From: Aequitasia blattaphilus
GTDB taxonomy: Bacteria; Bacillota; Clostridia; Lachnospirales; Lachnospiraceae
NCBI RefSeq assembly: GCF_024721305.1
Contig: NZ_JAMXOD010000004.1
Span: 155,291-219,290 of the forward strand
Direction of reading: 5' to 3'
Length of the DNA: 64,000 nucleotides
The translations under genes were made by a program, and so were the position numbers. Every line of letters begins with the position of its first letter. Position 1 is the first letter of the stretch. This document shows positions 21,978-28,830 of this stretch, one piece after another. The notes below the pieces were generated by a model. It searched no databases. It was not told where the DNA came from and was given only the letters and a program-made list of their open reading frames with translations.

Positions 21978-22011
21978 GTATAAAGAATATTTGAATTTAG
22001 GAGGAGAAAGG

Positions 22012-22905
22012 ATGTACAAGATAGTCAAAGCCGAAAAATTGGCCGACCTGATTTATCTGATGGACGTAGAAGCACCCCGTGTAGCTAGGCACTGTCAACC
22101 GGGTCAATTTGTGATTGTTAAAATTGATGAAAAAGGGGAACGTATTCCCTTAACTATTTGTGACTATGACAGAGAAGCAGGGACTGTTACAATTGTTTTG
22201 CAAACAGTAGGAGCTTCAACTGAAAGAATGGCGTCATTAAAAGAAGGAGATTACTTCAGAGATTTCGTTGGACCTCTTGGTGTTGCATCAGAGTTTGTCC
22301 ACGAAGATTTAGAAGAGTTGAAAAAGAAGAAAATACTCTTTGTAGGTGGTGGTGTTGGGGCCGCGCCTGTTTACCCTCAGGTAAAGTGGTTAAAAGAACA
22401 AGGTGTTGATGTTGATGTTGATGTTATCATCGGTTCCAAGACAAAGGATATGCTGATCTTGCAGGATGAGATGAAAGCCGTTGCAGGAAACTATTATCCA
22501 TGTACAGATGACGGTTCTTATGGTCATAGTGGAATGGTTACGACAAAAATAGAAGCTTTAGTAAATGAAGGCAAAAAGTATGATGTATGTGTGGCAATTG
22601 GTCCGATGATCATGATGAAATTCGTCTGTCTCCTTACAAAAAAACTTGAAATCCCTACCATCGTTAGTATGAATCCAATTATGGTTGATGGAACCGGGAT
22701 GTGTGGAGCTTGTCGGTTACACGTAGGTGACGAAGTGAAATTTGCCTGTGTAGACGGACCTGAGTTCGATGGACATTTAGTGGATTTTGATGAATCAATG
22801 CAAAGACAGGCACTCTACAAAACACAGGAAGGCCGTGCAATGCTTAAGCTAAAAGAAGGCGATACCCACCATGGTGGATGTGGAAATTGTGGAGGTGATG
22901 AATAA
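22012..22905 (+). CDS. nfnA: NfnA, small subunit of NADH-dependent reduced ferredoxin:NADP oxidoreductase
   Basis: FAD and [2Fe-2S] subunit of the electron-bifurcating transhydrogenase that couples NADH and reduced ferredoxin oxidation to NADPH formation. The 297 residues show FAD binding RIPLTICDYD, FVGGGVGAAPVYPQVKWL and the iron-sulfur cysteines in GTGMCGACRLHVGDEVKFAC. The ATG at 22012 follows GGAGGAGAAAGG; an earlier in-frame ATG overlaps the promoter. An in-frame GTTGAT repeat (22404-22421) encodes VDVDVD. nfnB starts on the last base of the nfnA stop codon. A dihydroorotate dehydrogenase electron-transfer subunit (PyrK-like) is the near relative, but the NfnB partner settles it. Confidence 0.93.
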   Translation: MYKIVKAEKLADLIYLMDVEAPRVARHCQPGQFVIVKIDEKGERIPLTICDYDREAGTVTIVLQTVGASTERMASLKEGDYFRDFVGPLGVASEFVHEDLEELKKKKILFVGGGVGAAPVYPQVKWLKEQGVDVDVDVIIGSKTKDMLILQDEMKAVAGNYYPCTDDGSYGHSGMVTTKIEALVNEGKKYDVCVAIGPMIMMKFVCLLTKKLEIPTIVSMNPIMVDGTGMCGACRLHVGDEVKFACVDGPEFDGHLVDFDESMQRQALYKTQEGRAMLKLKEGDTHHGGCGNCGGDE

Positions 22906-24293
22906 TGGCTGATATATTAAAGAGCACGCCTGTGCGTGAGCAGGATCCTGCTGAAAGAGCAAGAAACTTTGAAGAAGTATGTTATGGATATAATCAAGAA
23001 GAAGCTATGGACGAAGCAACCAGATGCCTAAACTGTAAGAATGCAAGATGTATTCAAGGGTGCCCGGTGTCGATTAATATTCCTGGTTTTGTTATGAAGG
23101 TAAAAGATGGTGACATCAAAGGTGCCTATGATGTAATTAGTGAATCATCTGCTTTGCCTGCAGTATGTGGACGTGTTTGTCCTCAGGAGTCACAGTGTGA
23201 AGCGAAATGTGTTCGTGGTATAAAGGGAGATGCTGTATCCATCGGTAAATTAGAAAGATTTGTTGCCGATTATGCATTGAAAAACAACATTAACCCTAAG
23301 ACACCTGAAAATAAAAACGGACATAAGGTTGCTGTAATCGGATCTGGTCCTGCTGGATTAACTTGTGCCGGCGATCTTGCAAAGATGGGCTATGAAGTTA
23401 CTGTTTTTGAAGCTTTACATGAGCTTGGTGGAGTTTTGGTTTACGGCATTCCTGAGTTCCGTTTACCAAAGCAAAAAGTAGTACAAAAAGAAATCGACAA
23501 GGTAAAAAGTCTTGGCGTAAAATTTGAAACAAATGTTGTAATCGGAAAATCTACTACCATCGATCAACTTATGGAAGAAGAAGGATTTGAAGCTGTATTT
23601 ATTGGTTCCGGAGCAGGTCTTCCTATGTTTATGGGAATTCCAGGCGAAACAGCAAATGGTGTATTTTCTGCAAATGAGTATTTAACAAGAAGTAACTTGA
23701 TGAAGGCATTTGATGATTCTTATGATACTCCAATATCTGCTGGAAAAAAAGTGGCAGTAGTTGGTGGTGGAAACGTTGCAATGGATGCTGCCAGAACCGC
23801 CCTTCGCCTAGGCGCAGAGGTTCATGTAGTGTACCGTCGTAGTGAAGAAGAACTTCCTGCCAGAGTAGAAGAAGTTCACCATGCAAAAGAAGAGGGTATT
23901 ATCTTTGATTTATTGACTAATCCAACTGAGATTCTTGTTGATGACAAAGGCTGGGTAAAGGGAATGAGCTGTATTCGTATGGAACTTGGCGAACCAGATG
24001 CTTCTGGAAGAAGAAGACCTGTAGAAATCCCTGGATCAGAATTCGAAATCGAATTAGACACAGTGATTATGTCTCTTGGTACTTCACCAAACCCATTAAT
24101 CGCTTCCACTACAACAGGACTTGAAACAAACCGCAGAAAATGTATCGTTGCAGATGAAGAAAATGGTGCAACATCTAAAGCTCTTGTGTACGCAGGCGGA
24201 GATGCTGTTACAGGTGCCGCAACTGTTATTCTTGCTATGGGAGCTGGAAGAGCAGGGGCAAAGGGTATTGATGAGGCTCTTTCAGGCAAATAA
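22905..24293 (+). CDS. nfnB: NfnB, large subunit of NADH-dependent reduced ferredoxin:NADP oxidoreductase
   Basis: Large subunit of NfnAB, with the bifurcating FAD and two [4Fe-4S] clusters; homologous to the small subunit of glutamate synthase (GltD-like, often annotated gltA). The 462 residues carry N-terminal cluster cysteines (CLNCKNARCIQGCPVSINIP and CGRVCPQESQCEAKC), FAD motif VAVIGSGPAGLTCAGDLAKM and NADP motif KVAVVGGGNVAMDAARTALR. Adjacent nfnA and the absence of a glutamate synthase large subunit support the Nfn assignment. Translation is coupled by a one-base overlap (TAATG). Confidence 0.93.
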   Translation: MADILKSTPVREQDPAERARNFEEVCYGYNQEEAMDEATRCLNCKNARCIQGCPVSINIPGFVMKVKDGDIKGAYDVISESSALPAVCGRVCPQESQCEAKCVRGIKGDAVSIGKLERFVADYALKNNINPKTPENKNGHKVAVIGSGPAGLTCAGDLAKMGYEVTVFEALHELGGVLVYGIPEFRLPKQKVVQKEIDKVKSLGVKFETNVVIGKSTTIDQLMEEEGFEAVFIGSGAGLPMFMGIPGETANGVFSANEYLTRSNLMKAFDDSYDTPISAGKKVAVVGGGNVAMDAARTALRLGAEVHVVYRRSEEELPARVEEVHHAKEEGIIFDLLTNPTEILVDDKGWVKGMSCIRMELGEPDASGRRRPVEIPGSEFEIELDTVIMSLGTSPNPLIASTTTGLETNRRKCIVADEENGATSKALVYAGGDAVTGAATVILAMGAGRAGAKGIDEALSGK

Positions 24294-24298
24294 GACGA

Positions 24299-24778
24299 AT
24301 GAAAATAACCCTTATAACCGTCGGAAAAATAAAAGAAAAATATTGGAAAGATGGGATAGCTGAATATTCAAAAAGACTTCAAAAATACTGTAAACTGGAG
24401 GTTCTTGAGGTTCCGGATGAAAAAACTCCTGATCAGGCAAGTGAGGCTGTTGAAAATAAGATTCGGGAAAAAGAGGGTGAGCGTATTCTTCGATTGATTC
24501 GAGAGGATTCTTACGTGATTGCTCTTGCAATCGAAGGATATAAACTGTCTTCTGAGGAATTATCTAAGAAAATCAATTCTCTTGGAATTAGTGGATGCAG
24601 CCATATATGCTTTGTAATTGGTGGATCAATAGGGCTTAGCGAGACGGTCTTAAAACGGGCGGACTATTCTCTTAGTTTTTCAGATATGACATTTCCTCAC
24701 CAGATGATGAGGGTCATACTTTTGGAACAGATTTATCGTAGCTATCGTATCATTCATAATCAACCGTACCATAAATAA
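24299..24778 (+). CDS. rlmH: 23S rRNA (pseudouridine1915-N3)-methyltransferase RlmH
   Basis: SPOUT-class methyltransferase that methylates pseudouridine 1915 in helix 69 of 23S rRNA on assembled ribosomes. Full length at 159 residues: MKITLITVGKIKEKYW at the start, the SAM-binding knot CFVIGGSIGLSETVLKRADY, and the ending MTFPHQMMRVILLEQIYRS with IHNQPYHK. It starts five bases after nfnB with no clear ribosome site, so coupled translation is likely. A terminator follows. Confidence 0.96.
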   Translation: MKITLITVGKIKEKYWKDGIAEYSKRLQKYCKLEVLEVPDEKTPDQASEAVENKIREKEGERILRLIREDSYVIALAIEGYKLSSEELSKKINSLGISGCSHICFVIGGSIGLSETVLKRADYSLSFSDMTFPHQMMRVILLEQIYRSYRIIHNQPYHK

Positions 24779-24785
24779 ATAGAAG

Positions 24786-24823
24786 AGGAGGCGTTGTAGT
24801 AAGTTCTACAATACCTCCTTTTC
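24786..24823. terminator. Terminator after rlmH
   Basis: Arms 24786-24799 and 24806-24819 (AGGAGG/CCTCCT outside, TTGTAG/CTACAA inside, one G-T pair and one C-A mismatch), six-base loop, then TTTTC. T-rich sequence also follows on the minus strand, so it may work both ways. Confidence 0.75.
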
Positions 24824-24826
24824 TAT

Positions 24827-24984
24827 TATGATACCTACGGATTGTTTCCCACTTCGTGCTCTCACAATCCTAAAAACATTCGGAATCCGCCCGATCGGGC
24901 TACTTCCTCATGTTTTTGCGACTTTCAAGGTCATGCTTCTGCATACGCGTATGCAAGCATGACTTTGAAAGTCTTGGTATCATA
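24827..24984. repeat. Four-way-junction palindromic element (candidate structured RNA or small mobile palindrome)
   Basis: A 158-base unit that folds into a closed cloverleaf. Outer stem: TATGATACC (24827-24835) with GGTATCATA (24976-24984). Arm 1: GGATTGT (24839-24845) with ACAATCC (24864-24870). Arm 2: AAAAACAT/ATGTTTTT (24872-24879/24910-24917), then GGAA/TTCC, then GCCC-GATC-GGGC, separated by small symmetric loops. Arm 3: GACTTTCA/TGAAAGTC (24920-24927/24966-24973), TCATGCTT/AAGCATGA, and tip GCATAC/GTATGC. The arms are separated by only 1-3 bases. It is visibly more GC-rich than its surroundings and overlaps the stop codon of the reverse-strand regulator. No family recognised. Confidence 0.7.
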
Positions 24985-27484
24985 TGATGTGATTTTGTAC
25001 CGCAATGTAGATTGCGTCGGCTCTATTTTTAGCACCTAGTTTAATGTAAATGTTATTAATAAATTTTTTTACTCCATTAAGAGAAATGCCTAGTTGTTCT
25101 GCAATTTCGTTTCTTGTAAACCCTTGGGATAGGAGATTTAAAACAACGCGTTCTCTTTTTGTCAGGGCGAAGGTGTTGCTTCCAATTTTTCTTTTAGCGC
25201 TTTTATATGCACTTCGAATATATTGTCGGCTGTCTTCATGTCTTTTTGCTTGAACTTCTAATTCTTTTACCCACTCCAAGTCAATGTCTAAATCTGTTCT
25301 TTGTTTAACGTAATAAAGAGTGGGAACAATTTGATTCCCAAATTCTACTATAGGCATCACAATTTTATTTTCATATACGTAATTATAGGTCTTGAGAAAA
25401 TGTTCTACCGCTTTTTCTTTTTCCTGTTCCTGCATAAAATAAATTGCACTGATGACATGGTAATATATTTTCAAAATAAAGAGGCCTCTTTGCCCGAAGA
25501 GTGGCTCAAGGTGGAAGAGCATAGAGGCACTTTTTGTATAGTTGCTTATATGCATATTATAAAGTGCACTAAAGAAATAATTCCGCCCATTGCGAATTGG
25601 ATACTCTTTATACGATTCAAATTCTCCTTCTTTAATCCAATCAGCCACCTTATTCTCATCATCAACTTGAAAGTAAATTCCAGCATTTAAGAGTTCTTTC
25701 AATTTTGAGAGTGACAAATTTTGGTCTCCGGATACATACGTATTTAATAAATTCGTTTCCTGTACAACACCCTCGTAGTTTTTCTCACACAGCGCAATAA
25801 GAGCTAAAATATAGTGAGCTTGCATCGTAATATCGAACTGCTTCGTTAAAACAGATTTACTTATTGCAAGTCTTGCTGCCACTTTGCATTTATTAAATTC
25901 CTTTGTGTAATAATAGGCCTCTGCTTCAAATAGATGTTCGAAACCATAATTACAATTCACACGTATTTTATCTCTTAGTTTGACAAAAGTATGAATATAA
26001 TCAATCATTTCCTCCACATTTTTACTTCCATCACTTGGAAGATAGAAAACTGGATTTTCATCAAAATTTGCAAGGGTTCGATTGCCAATCAAAATATTCT
26101 CTTCCCATTCATTAAGAGCACAATTTATGTATTCCATAGCCATTGTGTTATTCTTAATCAAGCTGATATCAGCCAGCATACAGTATATTTCCACAACTAG
26201 CTTCTTGCAAGGATTCTTTTTCTTTTCTACGGTTTTCAGCAAAGCTAAAAACATTCCTTTAGCATAATCTATTTGTCCACAGGTTACATATGTTTGCGCC
26301 AGATAAAAATCAATCCATAAATTATCCTCCAATAATTCCTGAGGAGTGGAACCGTAAAAACTTTGTAAGTCTTTAGATAATGTATAAGAAGAACGGTCGA
26401 GTGATACAAGAGGTAATGTTTTTAAAAAGCCCTCGTGGTTTTCAACTTTCATAAACATTTCCATTGCCTCTTCATATTTTTTGCATTTAAAATACCATTC
26501 AGCAGCAGCATTTAAGATGTTTCTTCTGTCTTCCTCACTTAAAACAATCAATTTCCCCTTTAGAAAGGTGTGATAGACTTTATGAAACGTAAAAACCTCT
26601 GTGTTGAAGTTAAAATCTACCAGTATATTCAATGAAATTTCCGAAAGAGTCTCTTCTGACGGATTTGGAAGAATCTGCTTCATTAGTCCTAATGAAAAGG
26701 AAGAAAAGAGGGAGCATTTAATCAAGGCAATCTGTATCTCCTGACTATAGTTTCCATAATAATGGTTTTCAAACAGTTCAAATAAGATCATATACGTTTT
26801 ATTTTCATCCATTGTTTCGCAAAGCATATCCAAAAAAATCGGCCAGCCATCTGTTTTTTTGAGAACCTCATCTAAAAATCTCCCATCAAGTACATAGTTA
26901 TTTATTTCCATATATTTTTTTGCATCTTCATAATCAAAAGCCAAATCATTTGCTGTTATTCTTGTATAAGATCCCGGATTTTTATAATCATCATAAAATG
27001 GATTTTTGTAGGAAGAGAGCCGCTCACAGCTGAGTAATATATGATGGGGAATAAATGCCTTCTCAAAGGTGTCAAGTTTAATACAGCGGTTGATAAATTG
27101 AAGGATATCTCTATTGGTTAAGATTTCATAATTGTCATAGATCACTGTAATTTCGATTTGCTCCTTGCTACAGGAACGCAAAAGGTGATAAAATTGAGTG
27201 AAATCTTCTATATTCACCGGCATGGATATGTTTTTCAAAACAGACGCAACTCCTGGAAAACTACCAATCAGAGCACGAGAAAAAGTATTCCAGAAAAAAT
27301 CGATATCATTTTCTAATTCTGTTATATTTATCCATATGCATGGAGTAGATAGTCGCGATATATACTCTCGAACCACAGTAGTTTTGCCGTATCCCGGAGG
27401 AGCCACAACTGTAATCAATGGACTCTGCAGTCCAGTCGTTAATAATGCTTCAACCTTTTCTTTAATTAAAATATGTTCTGCCAT
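24980..27484 (-). CDS. MalT-like LuxR-family transcriptional regulator (large ATPase type)
   Basis: Signal-dependent transcription activator of the LAL/STAND group. The 834 residues begin with an NTPase (Walker A VVAPPGYGKTTVVREYISRL near residue 24, Walker B-like VIYDNYEIL), continue with a long TPR-like helical region as probable ligand sensor (about 330-760), and end with a LuxR helix-turn-helix (LTKRERVVLNLLSQGFTRNE, then IAEQLGISLNGVKKFINNIY). The ligand and targets are unknown. It stands alone on the reverse strand between rlmH and phoH, with its stop codon inside the four-way-junction element. RBS AGAGGTG. Confidence 0.9.
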   Translation of the reverse strand: MAEHILIKEKVEALLTTGLQSPLITVVAPPGYGKTTVVREYISRLSTPCIWINITELENDIDFFWNTFSRALIGSFPGVASVLKNISMPVNIEDFTQFYHLLRSCSKEQIEITVIYDNYEILTNRDILQFINRCIKLDTFEKAFIPHHILLSCERLSSYKNPFYDDYKNPGSYTRITANDLAFDYEDAKKYMEINNYVLDGRFLDEVLKKTDGWPIFLDMLCETMDENKTYMILFELFENHYYGNYSQEIQIALIKCSLFSSFSLGLMKQILPNPSEETLSEISLNILVDFNFNTEVFTFHKVYHTFLKGKLIVLSEEDRRNILNAAAEWYFKCKKYEEAMEMFMKVENHEGFLKTLPLVSLDRSSYTLSKDLQSFYGSTPQELLEDNLWIDFYLAQTYVTCGQIDYAKGMFLALLKTVEKKKNPCKKLVVEIYCMLADISLIKNNTMAMEYINCALNEWEENILIGNRTLANFDENPVFYLPSDGSKNVEEMIDYIHTFVKLRDKIRVNCNYGFEHLFEAEAYYYTKEFNKCKVAARLAISKSVLTKQFDITMQAHYILALIALCEKNYEGVVQETNLLNTYVSGDQNLSLSKLKELLNAGIYFQVDDENKVADWIKEGEFESYKEYPIRNGRNYFFSALYNMHISNYTKSASMLFHLEPLFGQRGLFILKIYYHVISAIYFMQEQEKEKAVEHFLKTYNYVYENKIVMPIVEFGNQIVPTLYYVKQRTDLDIDLEWVKELEVQAKRHEDSRQYIRSAYKSAKRKIGSNTFALTKRERVVLNLLSQGFTRNEIAEQLGISLNGVKKFINNIYIKLGAKNRADAIYIAVQNHII

Positions 27485-27837
27485 ACAATCACCTCTAGAC
27501 TTATAATATCATGATTAAAAAGACATTTGGTACCCAAAAGGGTAGTGTTTTTTAGAATTTTTTCTTCAAAAGGTTAGTACATGCACTTTCATACCATGAT
27601 AAATTATACCTGTACAAAGGAATGGATTTCACTCCATAAATGGCTGTTTCATTGTGTATGTCGTTTGTTGTAAGCACACTAAATAACTTCGTTTATTGCC
27701 TTATCCCCAATAAAGCAAATATTAGTATTATATGATTCAGCCATTACCTGTACACTCATAATAAAATAAACGTGGAAATTTCTCCTAAAGATGGTAAAAT
27801 GTATATGTTATACATACCACTTTAAGGAGATTTTTTT
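27485..27837. promoter_or_regulatory. Divergent intergenic region between the LuxR-type regulator and phoH
   Basis: 353 bases without a gene. Near the regulator end is a small hairpin TACCC-AAAA-GGGTA (27531-27544) followed on the plus strand by TTTTTT. At the phoH end are its promoter and a palindrome. I find no RNA gene, no open frame with a ribosome site and no clear promoter for the regulator in the A/T-rich middle. Confidence 0.5.
27773..27815 (+). promoter_or_regulatory. phoH promoter with palindrome at the expected start site
   Basis: Weak -35 TGGAAA (27773-27778), a 16-base spacer and TAAAAT (27795-27800). Overlapping the -10 and running past +1 is the 17-base palindrome ATGTATA-TGT-TATACAT (27799-27815), a plausible operator. 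AAGGAGA then precedes the ATG. Confidence 0.5.
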
Positions 27838-28830
27838 ATGAATACAATGGAAGCAGTAATAGAAATACCTTCAGAATATGAAAGTAATGTTTTTGGAATA
27901 CAGGATTTATATGCAAAAAAAATCGAAAGAACACTTCATGTTACATTAATATCCAGAGACAACCATGTGAAACTTATGGGAAACCCGCCTCAAGTTGAGG
28001 GGGCAAAAAAAGTATTACAAGCTCTGGTTGATCTTGCAAAACGCGGGAATGACATTACGGAACAGAATGTCGATTATGCATTGTCTCTTGTTTTAGAAAA
28101 TAGTAATGCCGATTTGGTTGAAATTGATAAAGATGTTGTGAACCATACCCTTCAGGGAAGACCCATTAAACCGAAAACATTTGGTCAAAAAAAATACATC
28201 GATTCCATACGAAAAAACATGATTACTTTTGGAATCGGACCTGCCGGAACCGGTAAAACTTACCTTGCTATGGCTATGGCTATTGCAGCATTTAAAACAA
28301 ATGAGGTAAGTCGGATTATATTAACCAGACCTGCTATTGAAGCCGGTGAAAAGCTAGGATTTCTTCCTGGTGATTTACAAAGTAAAATCGATCCCTATTT
28401 ACGCCCATTATATGATGCACTCTATCAGATTATGGGGGCAGAGAGCTTTATTAAGAACTCGGAAAAGGGTCTAATAGAAGTAGCTCCCTTAGCTTATATG
28501 AGAGGAAGAACTCTGGACAACGCATTTATTATTTTAGACGAGGCACAAAATACCACCCCAGCGCAGATGAAGATGTTTTTAACCCGTATTGGGTTTGGCT
28601 CAAAAGTTGTTGTCACTGGTGATGCAACCCAGAAAGATTTACCGAAAGGACAAGCTTCCGGACTAGATGTAGCCGTAAATATTGTTGGTAAAATTGATGA
28701 CATTGGTATCTGTCAATTAAGCAGTAAAGATGTCGTAAGACATCCCTTGGTGCAGAAAATCGTAAAAGCTTATGAAGATTTCGAAAAGAAAGAAAAGGGA
28801 AGAGGACAGAGGAAGAGGAAACGACTATGA
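27838..28830 (+). CDS. phoH: PhoH-like ATPase
   Basis: Cytoplasmic P-loop ATPase of the PhoH family, thought to act in RNA metabolism with YbeY. The 330 residues show an N-terminal KH-like region (TLHVTLISRDNHVKLMGNP), Walker A GIGPAGTGKTYLAMAMAIAA (about residue 135), ILTRPAIEAGEKLGFLPGDL, and Walker B-type IILDEAQNTTPAQMKMFLTR. It overlaps ybeY by four bases (ATGA), the standard partner. Confidence 0.95.
   Translation: MNTMEAVIEIPSEYESNVFGIQDLYAKKIERTLHVTLISRDNHVKLMGNPPQVEGAKKVLQALVDLAKRGNDITEQNVDYALSLVLENSNADLVEIDKDVVNHTLQGRPIKPKTFGQKKYIDSIRKNMITFGIGPAGTGKTYLAMAMAIAAFKTNEVSRIILTRPAIEAGEKLGFLPGDLQSKIDPYLRPLYDALYQIMGAESFIKNSEKGLIEVAPLAYMRGRTLDNAFIILDEAQNTTPAQMKMFLTRIGFGSKVVVTGDATQKDLPKGQASGLDVAVNIVGKIDDIGICQLSSKDVVRHPLVQKIVKAYEDFEKKEKGRGQRKRKRL

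Follow-up and report, generated by a model that had tools for sequence, protein, structure and literature searches.

A probable settled copy of the Clostridiales-1 RNA element at the stop codon of a LuxR-like gene in Aequitasia blattaphilus

Between the convergent genes rlmH and a LuxR-type regulator of Aequitasia blattaphilus, the 64,000-nucleotide stretch of DNA analyzed here (the window) carries a compact cloverleaf that includes the stop codon of the regulator. What this element is, and how it came to lie at the end of a coding sequence, are the questions that the locus raises. An initial annotation, made from the letters alone, had offered three alternatives, namely a non-coding RNA, a 3' structure on the regulator mRNA or a small mobile palindrome, and each of them is partly right: the family consists of RNAs with covariation, the copy sits at the 3' end of the regulator gene, and the relatives resemble MITEs and carry target duplications. 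The explanation that we favor, with a probability of roughly 0.68, is that the feature represents a settled Clostridiales-1 element from a MITE-like family, the core of which would be transcribed as the 3' end of the luxR-like mRNA.

Fold and family membership of the window element

Folding of both strands returned the closed four-way structure where it had been described, with a length of 158 nt (24827..24984, assigned to the minus strand) made up of a 9-bp closing helix, P1 (24827–24835 with 24976–24984), and three arms (24839–24870, 24871–24918 and 24920–24973), and this fold was unchanged in a 301-nt context. The arms are closely spaced as had been claimed, at distances of 0–3 nt rather than 1–3. 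The MFE was −70.4 kcal/mol on the plus strand (z = −11.4) and −72.0 kcal/mol on the minus strand (z = −10.6), and on each strand none of 200 dinucleotide shuffles folded as stably. Arm 1 in the RNA sense (24920..24973, minus strand; previously called arm 3 and described with about 25 bp, one 2-base bulge and one G-T pair) is a long hairpin of 24 bp with a single 2-nt bulge and one G-U pair, delimited from the fold of both strands and from the ends of the mobile relatives, in which its outer part forms part of the 5' inverted repeat (GGGTCAAAAGG). Its tip reads GCTTGC in 101 of 122 copies and GCTCGC in another 10, and the window copy has neither. Arm 2 (24871..24918, minus strand), a conserved CATGAG..AG / CGGA..CGAATG hairpin recognized from the fold, the Rfam alignment and pair counts, shows the nested stems, small symmetric loops and tip (GCCCGATCGGGC) previously attributed to it; its two symmetric internal loops are purine-rich, and many of its columns are invariant or nearly so in our own covariance model, R1. 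Arm 3 (24839..24870, minus strand) is a GGATTG..CAATCC hairpin, present in the fold and in the Rfam alignment.

The initial annotation knew of no matching family, and on this point the Rfam search overturned it: cmscan assigned 24829..24982 of the minus strand to Clostridiales-1 RNA (RF01699) across the whole model (1–166), with 114.6 bits (E 2.4e-25) against a gathering score of 48, the likeness extending to both sequence and structure. The R1 model scored the window copy (L004), one of its 30 training sequences, at 115.6 bits. Five other Rfam matches around the element, to a plasmodium snoRNA and four miRNA families, were rejected as lying under their own gathering scores, and ARAGORN found no tRNA-like element at 22000–28000. 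Clostridiales-1 was introduced by Weinberg et al. 2010 (PMC2864571) as a candidate RNA in Clostridiales and the human gut, and is marked 'y' for RNA and 'n' for cis-regulatory in the table of that paper; its Rfam type is 'Gene; sRNA'. The table entries on it in the same paper make no mention of inverted repeats, target duplications, copy number or stop-codon placement, and among the literature matches listed (titles and abstract beginnings of open-licence papers) we found none in which Clostridiales-1 was described as mobile or linked to stop codons.

Matches to RF01699 occurred in 161 of 299 genomes sampled from the host's family (Lachnospiraceae) and exceeded the cut-off in 130, with at most nine candidates scored per genome. 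In two complete genomes, the numbers of matches at E ≤ 0.001 were 93 and 31 with weak ones counted, 93 being the highest number per genome. Class-wide, 16 of 391 genomes matched, 13 of them over the cut-off; these 16 comprise 12 of the same family (own genome included), one of another family of the order and three in two more distant families. Second copies, which the initial annotation had proposed to look for, are thus numerous in other genomes, and none was found in the genome of the window, where a single RF01699 copy was detected; two extra DNA matches there were dismissed as the element's own palindromes on the opposite strand. A search of two further genomes from the genus detected no Clostridiales-1 copy. 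Among viral contigs, the core pattern was detected at one locus and the exact end at none. Similar stretches were also seen at three places in a Butyrivibrio fibrisolvens plasmid (NZ_CP146964.1) and at five places in five unannotated fecal phage-labelled records, none of them spanning 80% of the query.

Mobile relatives and the copy in the window

The Rfam model spans only part of a mobile unit of about 180–210 bp with terminal inverted repeats. Past the 3' end of the model, many copies continue with a hairpin ending in CCTTTTGACCCCAACATC, the inverse of the start GATACCAGGGTCAAAAGG. Exact direct repeats of 6–8 bp flank 30 of 46 distinct full-length copies (22 of 7 bp, 7 of 8 bp and 1 of 6 bp; identical copies dropped), about 1.7 being expected by chance when left and right flanks are paired at random. 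A short non-coding unit, inverted repeats and target duplication are therefore combined in these copies as in MITEs, and tandem as well as internally deleted copies occur in the family. At the one locus tested for filled and empty sites, the element is present at a stop codon in genome G272 (..TTA ATA TGA(TACC), then AAAAA after the second ATTAATAT) and absent from G686 and G682, two genomes of the same genus in which both flanks are as in G272 and the upstream frame stops at the same codon, with the ends ..TTA AAG TAA and ..TTA AAG TAG. Because the filled site continues with AAAAA, the old end in G272 would have been ..TTA ATA TAA. These comparisons show that a MITE-like mobile unit exists within the family.

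Several further observations concern the mobile form. The sequence preceding the tested insertion recurs with 98% identity at G272:C1:2607068–2607888, where it reaches about 25 nt into the element, and a further RF01699 copy is located about 500 bp away. Internally deleted elements of 64–91 bp that keep both inverted ends were seen in L189, L192, L204 and L205, and head-to-tail arrays with abutting or overlapping closing helices in L040, L106, L109, L170 and at G272:C1:2403040–2403674. A transposase with Clostridiales-1 ends was found neither by end patterns in nine genomes, nor by ORF clustering, nor with PF01610 in 14 genomes, and inspection of the 25 largest neighbor clusters by eye revealed no evident one. 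As a transposase source, PF01610 (ISL3) was rejected, having no match in 10 of the 14 element-rich genomes. Two end pairs were likewise discarded as transposons: one of 1525 bp in L027/L165, which contains a LacI-like gene (named by eye) and no evident transposase, and one of 2.8 kb in G300, whose enclosed ORFs are unlike transposases. Twenty regions were fetched around a subset of the end-like matches (17 from G272, two from G233 and one from G192), five of them being covered as hit lists; the 15 inspected in sequence contained single ends or copies that were deleted or partial, and no transposon. In the window's own genome, six end-like sequences, all on different contigs, were found at ≤2 mismatches, compared with one when the control was reversed.

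The window element is flanked by convergent genes and does not belong to an operon. On one side, rlmH (24299..24778, plus strand; NCBIfam RlmH, over cut-off) is directly followed by a separate hairpin (24779..24826, no strand assigned), seen by folding in context and probably the rlmH terminator; in the congener G001, a hairpin and a T-run occur at about the same distance after rlmH. This hairpin occupies the place of the 3' inverted-repeat hairpin of the mobile form, is unlike it, and may be a plain terminator or a remodelled remnant of that hairpin. On the other side lies the LuxR/MalT-like gene (24980..27484, minus strand; from the ORF list and profile hits), the mRNA of which would end with the element and the product of which matches the MalT model under the cut-off (111.5 of 537 bits, E 3.2e-32), with weak LuxR-type C-terminal matches. 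The ORF ends within the outer stem of the cloverleaf, its TGA stop codon (24980..24982, minus strand) falling inside the P1 5' strand, in agreement with the earlier observation that the element includes it.

The window copy has neither of the terminal marks of its mobile relatives, since the best 3' match to its 5' end contains 8/16 mismatches and the target-site duplication is 0 bp. The same combination, without inverted repeats or duplication and with the pairing still kept, characterizes what we call the settled form, and we regard the window copy as an instance of it. Whether the element had inserted at the stop codon or evolved with the gene end was left undecided in the initial annotation. 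The comparison with G001 favors insertion: there, the rlmH-luxR order is kept, the element is absent, and the regulator has the same C-terminus (NHII) followed by a TAA stop; in G002, no luxR follows rlmH. In the simplest reading, the stop codon of the LuxR-like gene would have been the insertion point of an ancestral element in the window lineage, its own TGA replacing the old stop and leaving the protein end unchanged, and its 3' inverted-repeat part would then have been lost. We infer this from one distant congener (G001 shows 69–74% identity in matched pieces) because the window copy is without the 3' inverted repeat and without a duplication. Among the eight most similar copies listed, two in L027 are closest to the window copy in arms 2 and 3 (82/89) and L176 has the highest overall identity (119/138); one of the L027 copies (129–312) is flanked by an exact 6-bp repeat and the other is not.

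Selection on the fold and placement at stop codons

The R1 model gave 80 and 59 matches in two locus sets, the second of which includes training sequences; L165 was left out of this search. Covariation, suggested at the outset as a check on the element, was present: the share of paired cells reached 95.0% and 97.0% in the two sets, compared with 75.3% and 77.6% after shuffling and 25–46% with slid partners, and changes on both sides were found in 34 and 37 of 39 pairs, all in alignments that were fitted to the structure and hence lean towards it. The covariation score was 0.437 and 0.436, against 0.133 and 0.147 in shuffles, and none of 500 shuffles attained the observed values. The four-way junction is accordingly backed by covariation in two alignments (A2 and A3), both structure-fitted. 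On the Rfam strand, mismatches of the G-T type outnumbered A-C by 129 to 43 in 139 copies, with ratios of 52:19 in settled (56 copies) and 35:6 in mobile copies (31 copies), which is the outcome expected if that strand folds. At the upp locus, where the element is orthologous in three Butyrivibrio loci, arms 2 and 3 are 87–89% identical, compared with 47–63% for the third codon positions of upp (38 sites) and 39–51% for arm 1. Selection of the four-way-junction core as a folded strand is well supported by these comparisons.

To describe the genomic setting, copies longer than 120 nt were retained (151, those of 120 nt or less being excluded), of which 112 had mechanically called neighbors on both sides within 800 nt and 39 were dropped. 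Copies with ≤5/16 end mismatches or a duplication of ≥6 bp were classed as mobile (45) and the others as settled (67). The upstream neighbor was sense rather than antisense in 47:20 settled and 15:30 mobile copies (Fisher P 2e-4). Where a settled copy had a sense upstream gene, the stop codon lay within −16..+7 nt of the element start in 30 of 47 cases and within −3..+2 in 20, as against none of the nine 3'-side antisense genes ending within −16..+7 nt; for mobile copies, the corresponding counts were 4/15 sense and 2/17 antisense. Between two sense genes, the stop lay ≤7 nt before or inside the element in 29/44 settled copies (7.6 expected) and 3/10 mobile copies (0.8 expected, P 0.025), the expectations being those of a rough null of uniform placement between the two genes. 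Because the mobile copies too have a stop excess, target preference contributes to the pattern. By these counts, settled copies are mostly sense to the upstream gene and frequently begin at the stop codon of that gene.

The 34 stop-abutting copies (30 settled and 4 mobile) follow genes of 32 protein clusters, and in 19 of them the stop lies entirely within paired P1. Nine upstream genes of settled stop-abutting copies were named by NCBIfam, including thymidylate synthase, PurF, RuvA, YchF and the ribosomal proteins S11 and S4. The ribosomal cluster of L082 (Butyrivibrio) contains two copies (1714–1864 and 2603–2739), the first separating rpsK from rpsD and the other following rpsD. Of the 58 settled copies with a downstream sense gene, 18 have the next sense start 18–46 nt past the element.

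Within single genomes, the stop-codon pattern was very strong in Butyrivibrio AE3009 (G300) and weak in G272. G300 has 37 matches, 31 over the cut-off, of which 30 were used and one at a contig edge was omitted; their upstream neighbors were 24 sense, 2 antisense and 4 uncalled, with 20 of the 24 sense stops abutting, and 15 of 18 sense-sense pairs abutted (4.4 expected). Of the 93 matches in G272, 49 were used, with 21 sense, 27 antisense and one uncalled upstream neighbor and 6/21 abutting. Copies that the rule calls settled had 11 sense and 13 antisense neighbors there, and, because genes in both orientations abut them (3/11 sense, 3/7 antisense), no sense effect is present in G272, where this class probably contains truncated mobile copies. 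Contact with stop codons is not strictly sense-only either, as antisense contacts at the 3' side of settled copies amounted to 2/3 in G300 and 3/7 in G272, compared with 0/9 for settled copies in the census; the two in G300 were between convergent genes, with both stops touching. Median pairwise identity marks the G300 copies as old (0.59 in arm 1 and 0.64 in arms 2 and 3, 20 copies) and those of G233 (0.97 and 0.98, nine copies) and G272 (0.98 and 0.88, seven copies) as young, two of these 16 young copies being labelled settled by the rule. The old settled copies of Butyrivibrio still match the paired family model. Because of this and of the conservation at upp, settled copies are kept by selection on the fold, at least in Butyrivibrio, with arm 1 freer in sequence.

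Candidate roles and their alternatives

Sense orientation combined with a stop codon at or within the closing helix points to an mRNA element that acts in cis and is transcribed together with the upstream gene. In such an element, a ribosome terminating in P1 would open the base of the cloverleaf and its release would close it, so that whether the upstream message is cleaved or protected at its 3' end would come to depend on its translation, as has been described for ERIC. Because it lies at the end of a transcription unit, the window copy would act solely on the upstream gene. For ERIC, a ribosome-induced change of the repeat RNA has been proposed to expose a cleavage site, orientation being crucial (De Gregorio et al. 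2005, as summarized in PMC2229807). Sense orientation beside stop codons was found in the settled relatives overall and in the window copy, and not in G272. By analogy, a ribosome-coupled mRNA element with an ERIC-like mechanism is a tentative proposal, and we infer the effector step in the same way, whether it be cleavage, protection or insulation. More speculatively, Clostridiales-1 might constitute a transposable untranslated-region module, that is, a MITE with structured-RNA cargo and a stop in its closing helix, which would land on stops without altering the protein and be kept as a translation-termination sensor uncoupling cistrons, with the arm-2 hairpin, common to a second repeat described below, as the putative binding site of a Lachnospiraceae factor.

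The likeness to ERIC, IRU and RU-1 is drawn as a parallel of mechanism: in the account of ERIC in PMC2229807, these are small mobile repeats that are co-transcribed, whose orientation matters and for which a ribosome-induced RNA change was proposed, but they are enterobacterial and 127 bp long. Correia/NEMIS, RUP and BOX are also MITE-like repeats, some with RNA-level effects, and RUP and BOX have been linked to insertion sequences through similar inverted repeats (PMC2229807, PMC3049150). Most repeats treated in PMC2229807 have TA ends, whereas Clostridiales-1 shows duplications of 7–8 bp and a covarying four-way-junction core; and pneumococcal repeats are described as over-represented between convergent genes (PMC2229807, PMC3049150), whereas settled Clostridiales-1 copies are mostly found between co-directional genes.

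Other explanations were weighed against the same data. In a purely selfish MITE, the folds would serve single-stranded-DNA transposition and the positions would reflect AT-rich targets and the purging of harmful insertions; inverted repeats, duplications, empty sites, tandem arrays and deletion derivatives all suit this account, as do the absence of sense bias in mobile copies and the abutting antisense genes of G272. We nevertheless consider it unlikely, as the settled Butyrivibrio copies are old yet match the paired model with a sense bias of 24:2, and arms 2 and 3 at upp are better conserved than third codon positions. An independent small RNA gene that acts in trans, and lies beside luxR by accident, would agree with the Rfam type and the entries of Weinberg et al. 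(PMC2864571) cited above, and with the lack of a recurrent specific neighbor gene among the clusters examined. Promoter-like sites, however, numbered 5 against 4.3 expected in shuffles, with none on the minus strand in the ≤230 nt before the element, and many settled copies begin at stops in the sense orientation, some within operons (rpsK-element-rpsD-element), which makes such a gene quite improbable.

The location between convergent genes and the very stable stems would suit a bidirectional terminator, or a barrier at the 3' ends, of the rlmH and luxR transcripts. Yet no U-tract directly follows the element, rlmH is followed by a hairpin of its own, and relatives occur between co-directional genes, including those for ribosomal proteins, where termination should be harmful; we thus give this account little credence. 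That the element is a regulator specific to this LuxR-type gene is suggested by position alone, and its absence from the sister locus in G001 and the variety of upstream protein clusters among stop-abutting copies render it highly improbable.

Should the favored explanation of a settled, MITE-derived element transcribed with the luxR-like gene be true, a family on record since 2010 as an Rfam 'sRNA' would turn out to be a mobile element carrying RNA cargo. It would provide a gut-bacterial counterpart of ERIC, each genome offering many natural replicates (filled or empty, sense or antisense, mobile or settled), in which the way that selfish repeats turn into regulatory RNA would become directly testable.

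The second dispersed repeat, which has nothing but the arm-2 hairpin (CATGAG..CGGA..CGAATG) in common with Clostridiales-1, was seen in L067, L068, L071, L072, L075, L079, L081, L084, L088, L097, L098, L105 and other loci. A pattern for this hairpin gathered 44 matches without a model hit in 40 loci, one of which, L165, is a true Clostridiales-1 copy outside the R1 search. In 18 of these loci, cmscan found no Rfam family at the places of the second repeat. The sequence continues to TCCGCTTTAC in 24 of the 44 matches. At L099:7219–7364 (minus strand), three tandem units of 57 bp each contain the arm-2 hairpin alone.
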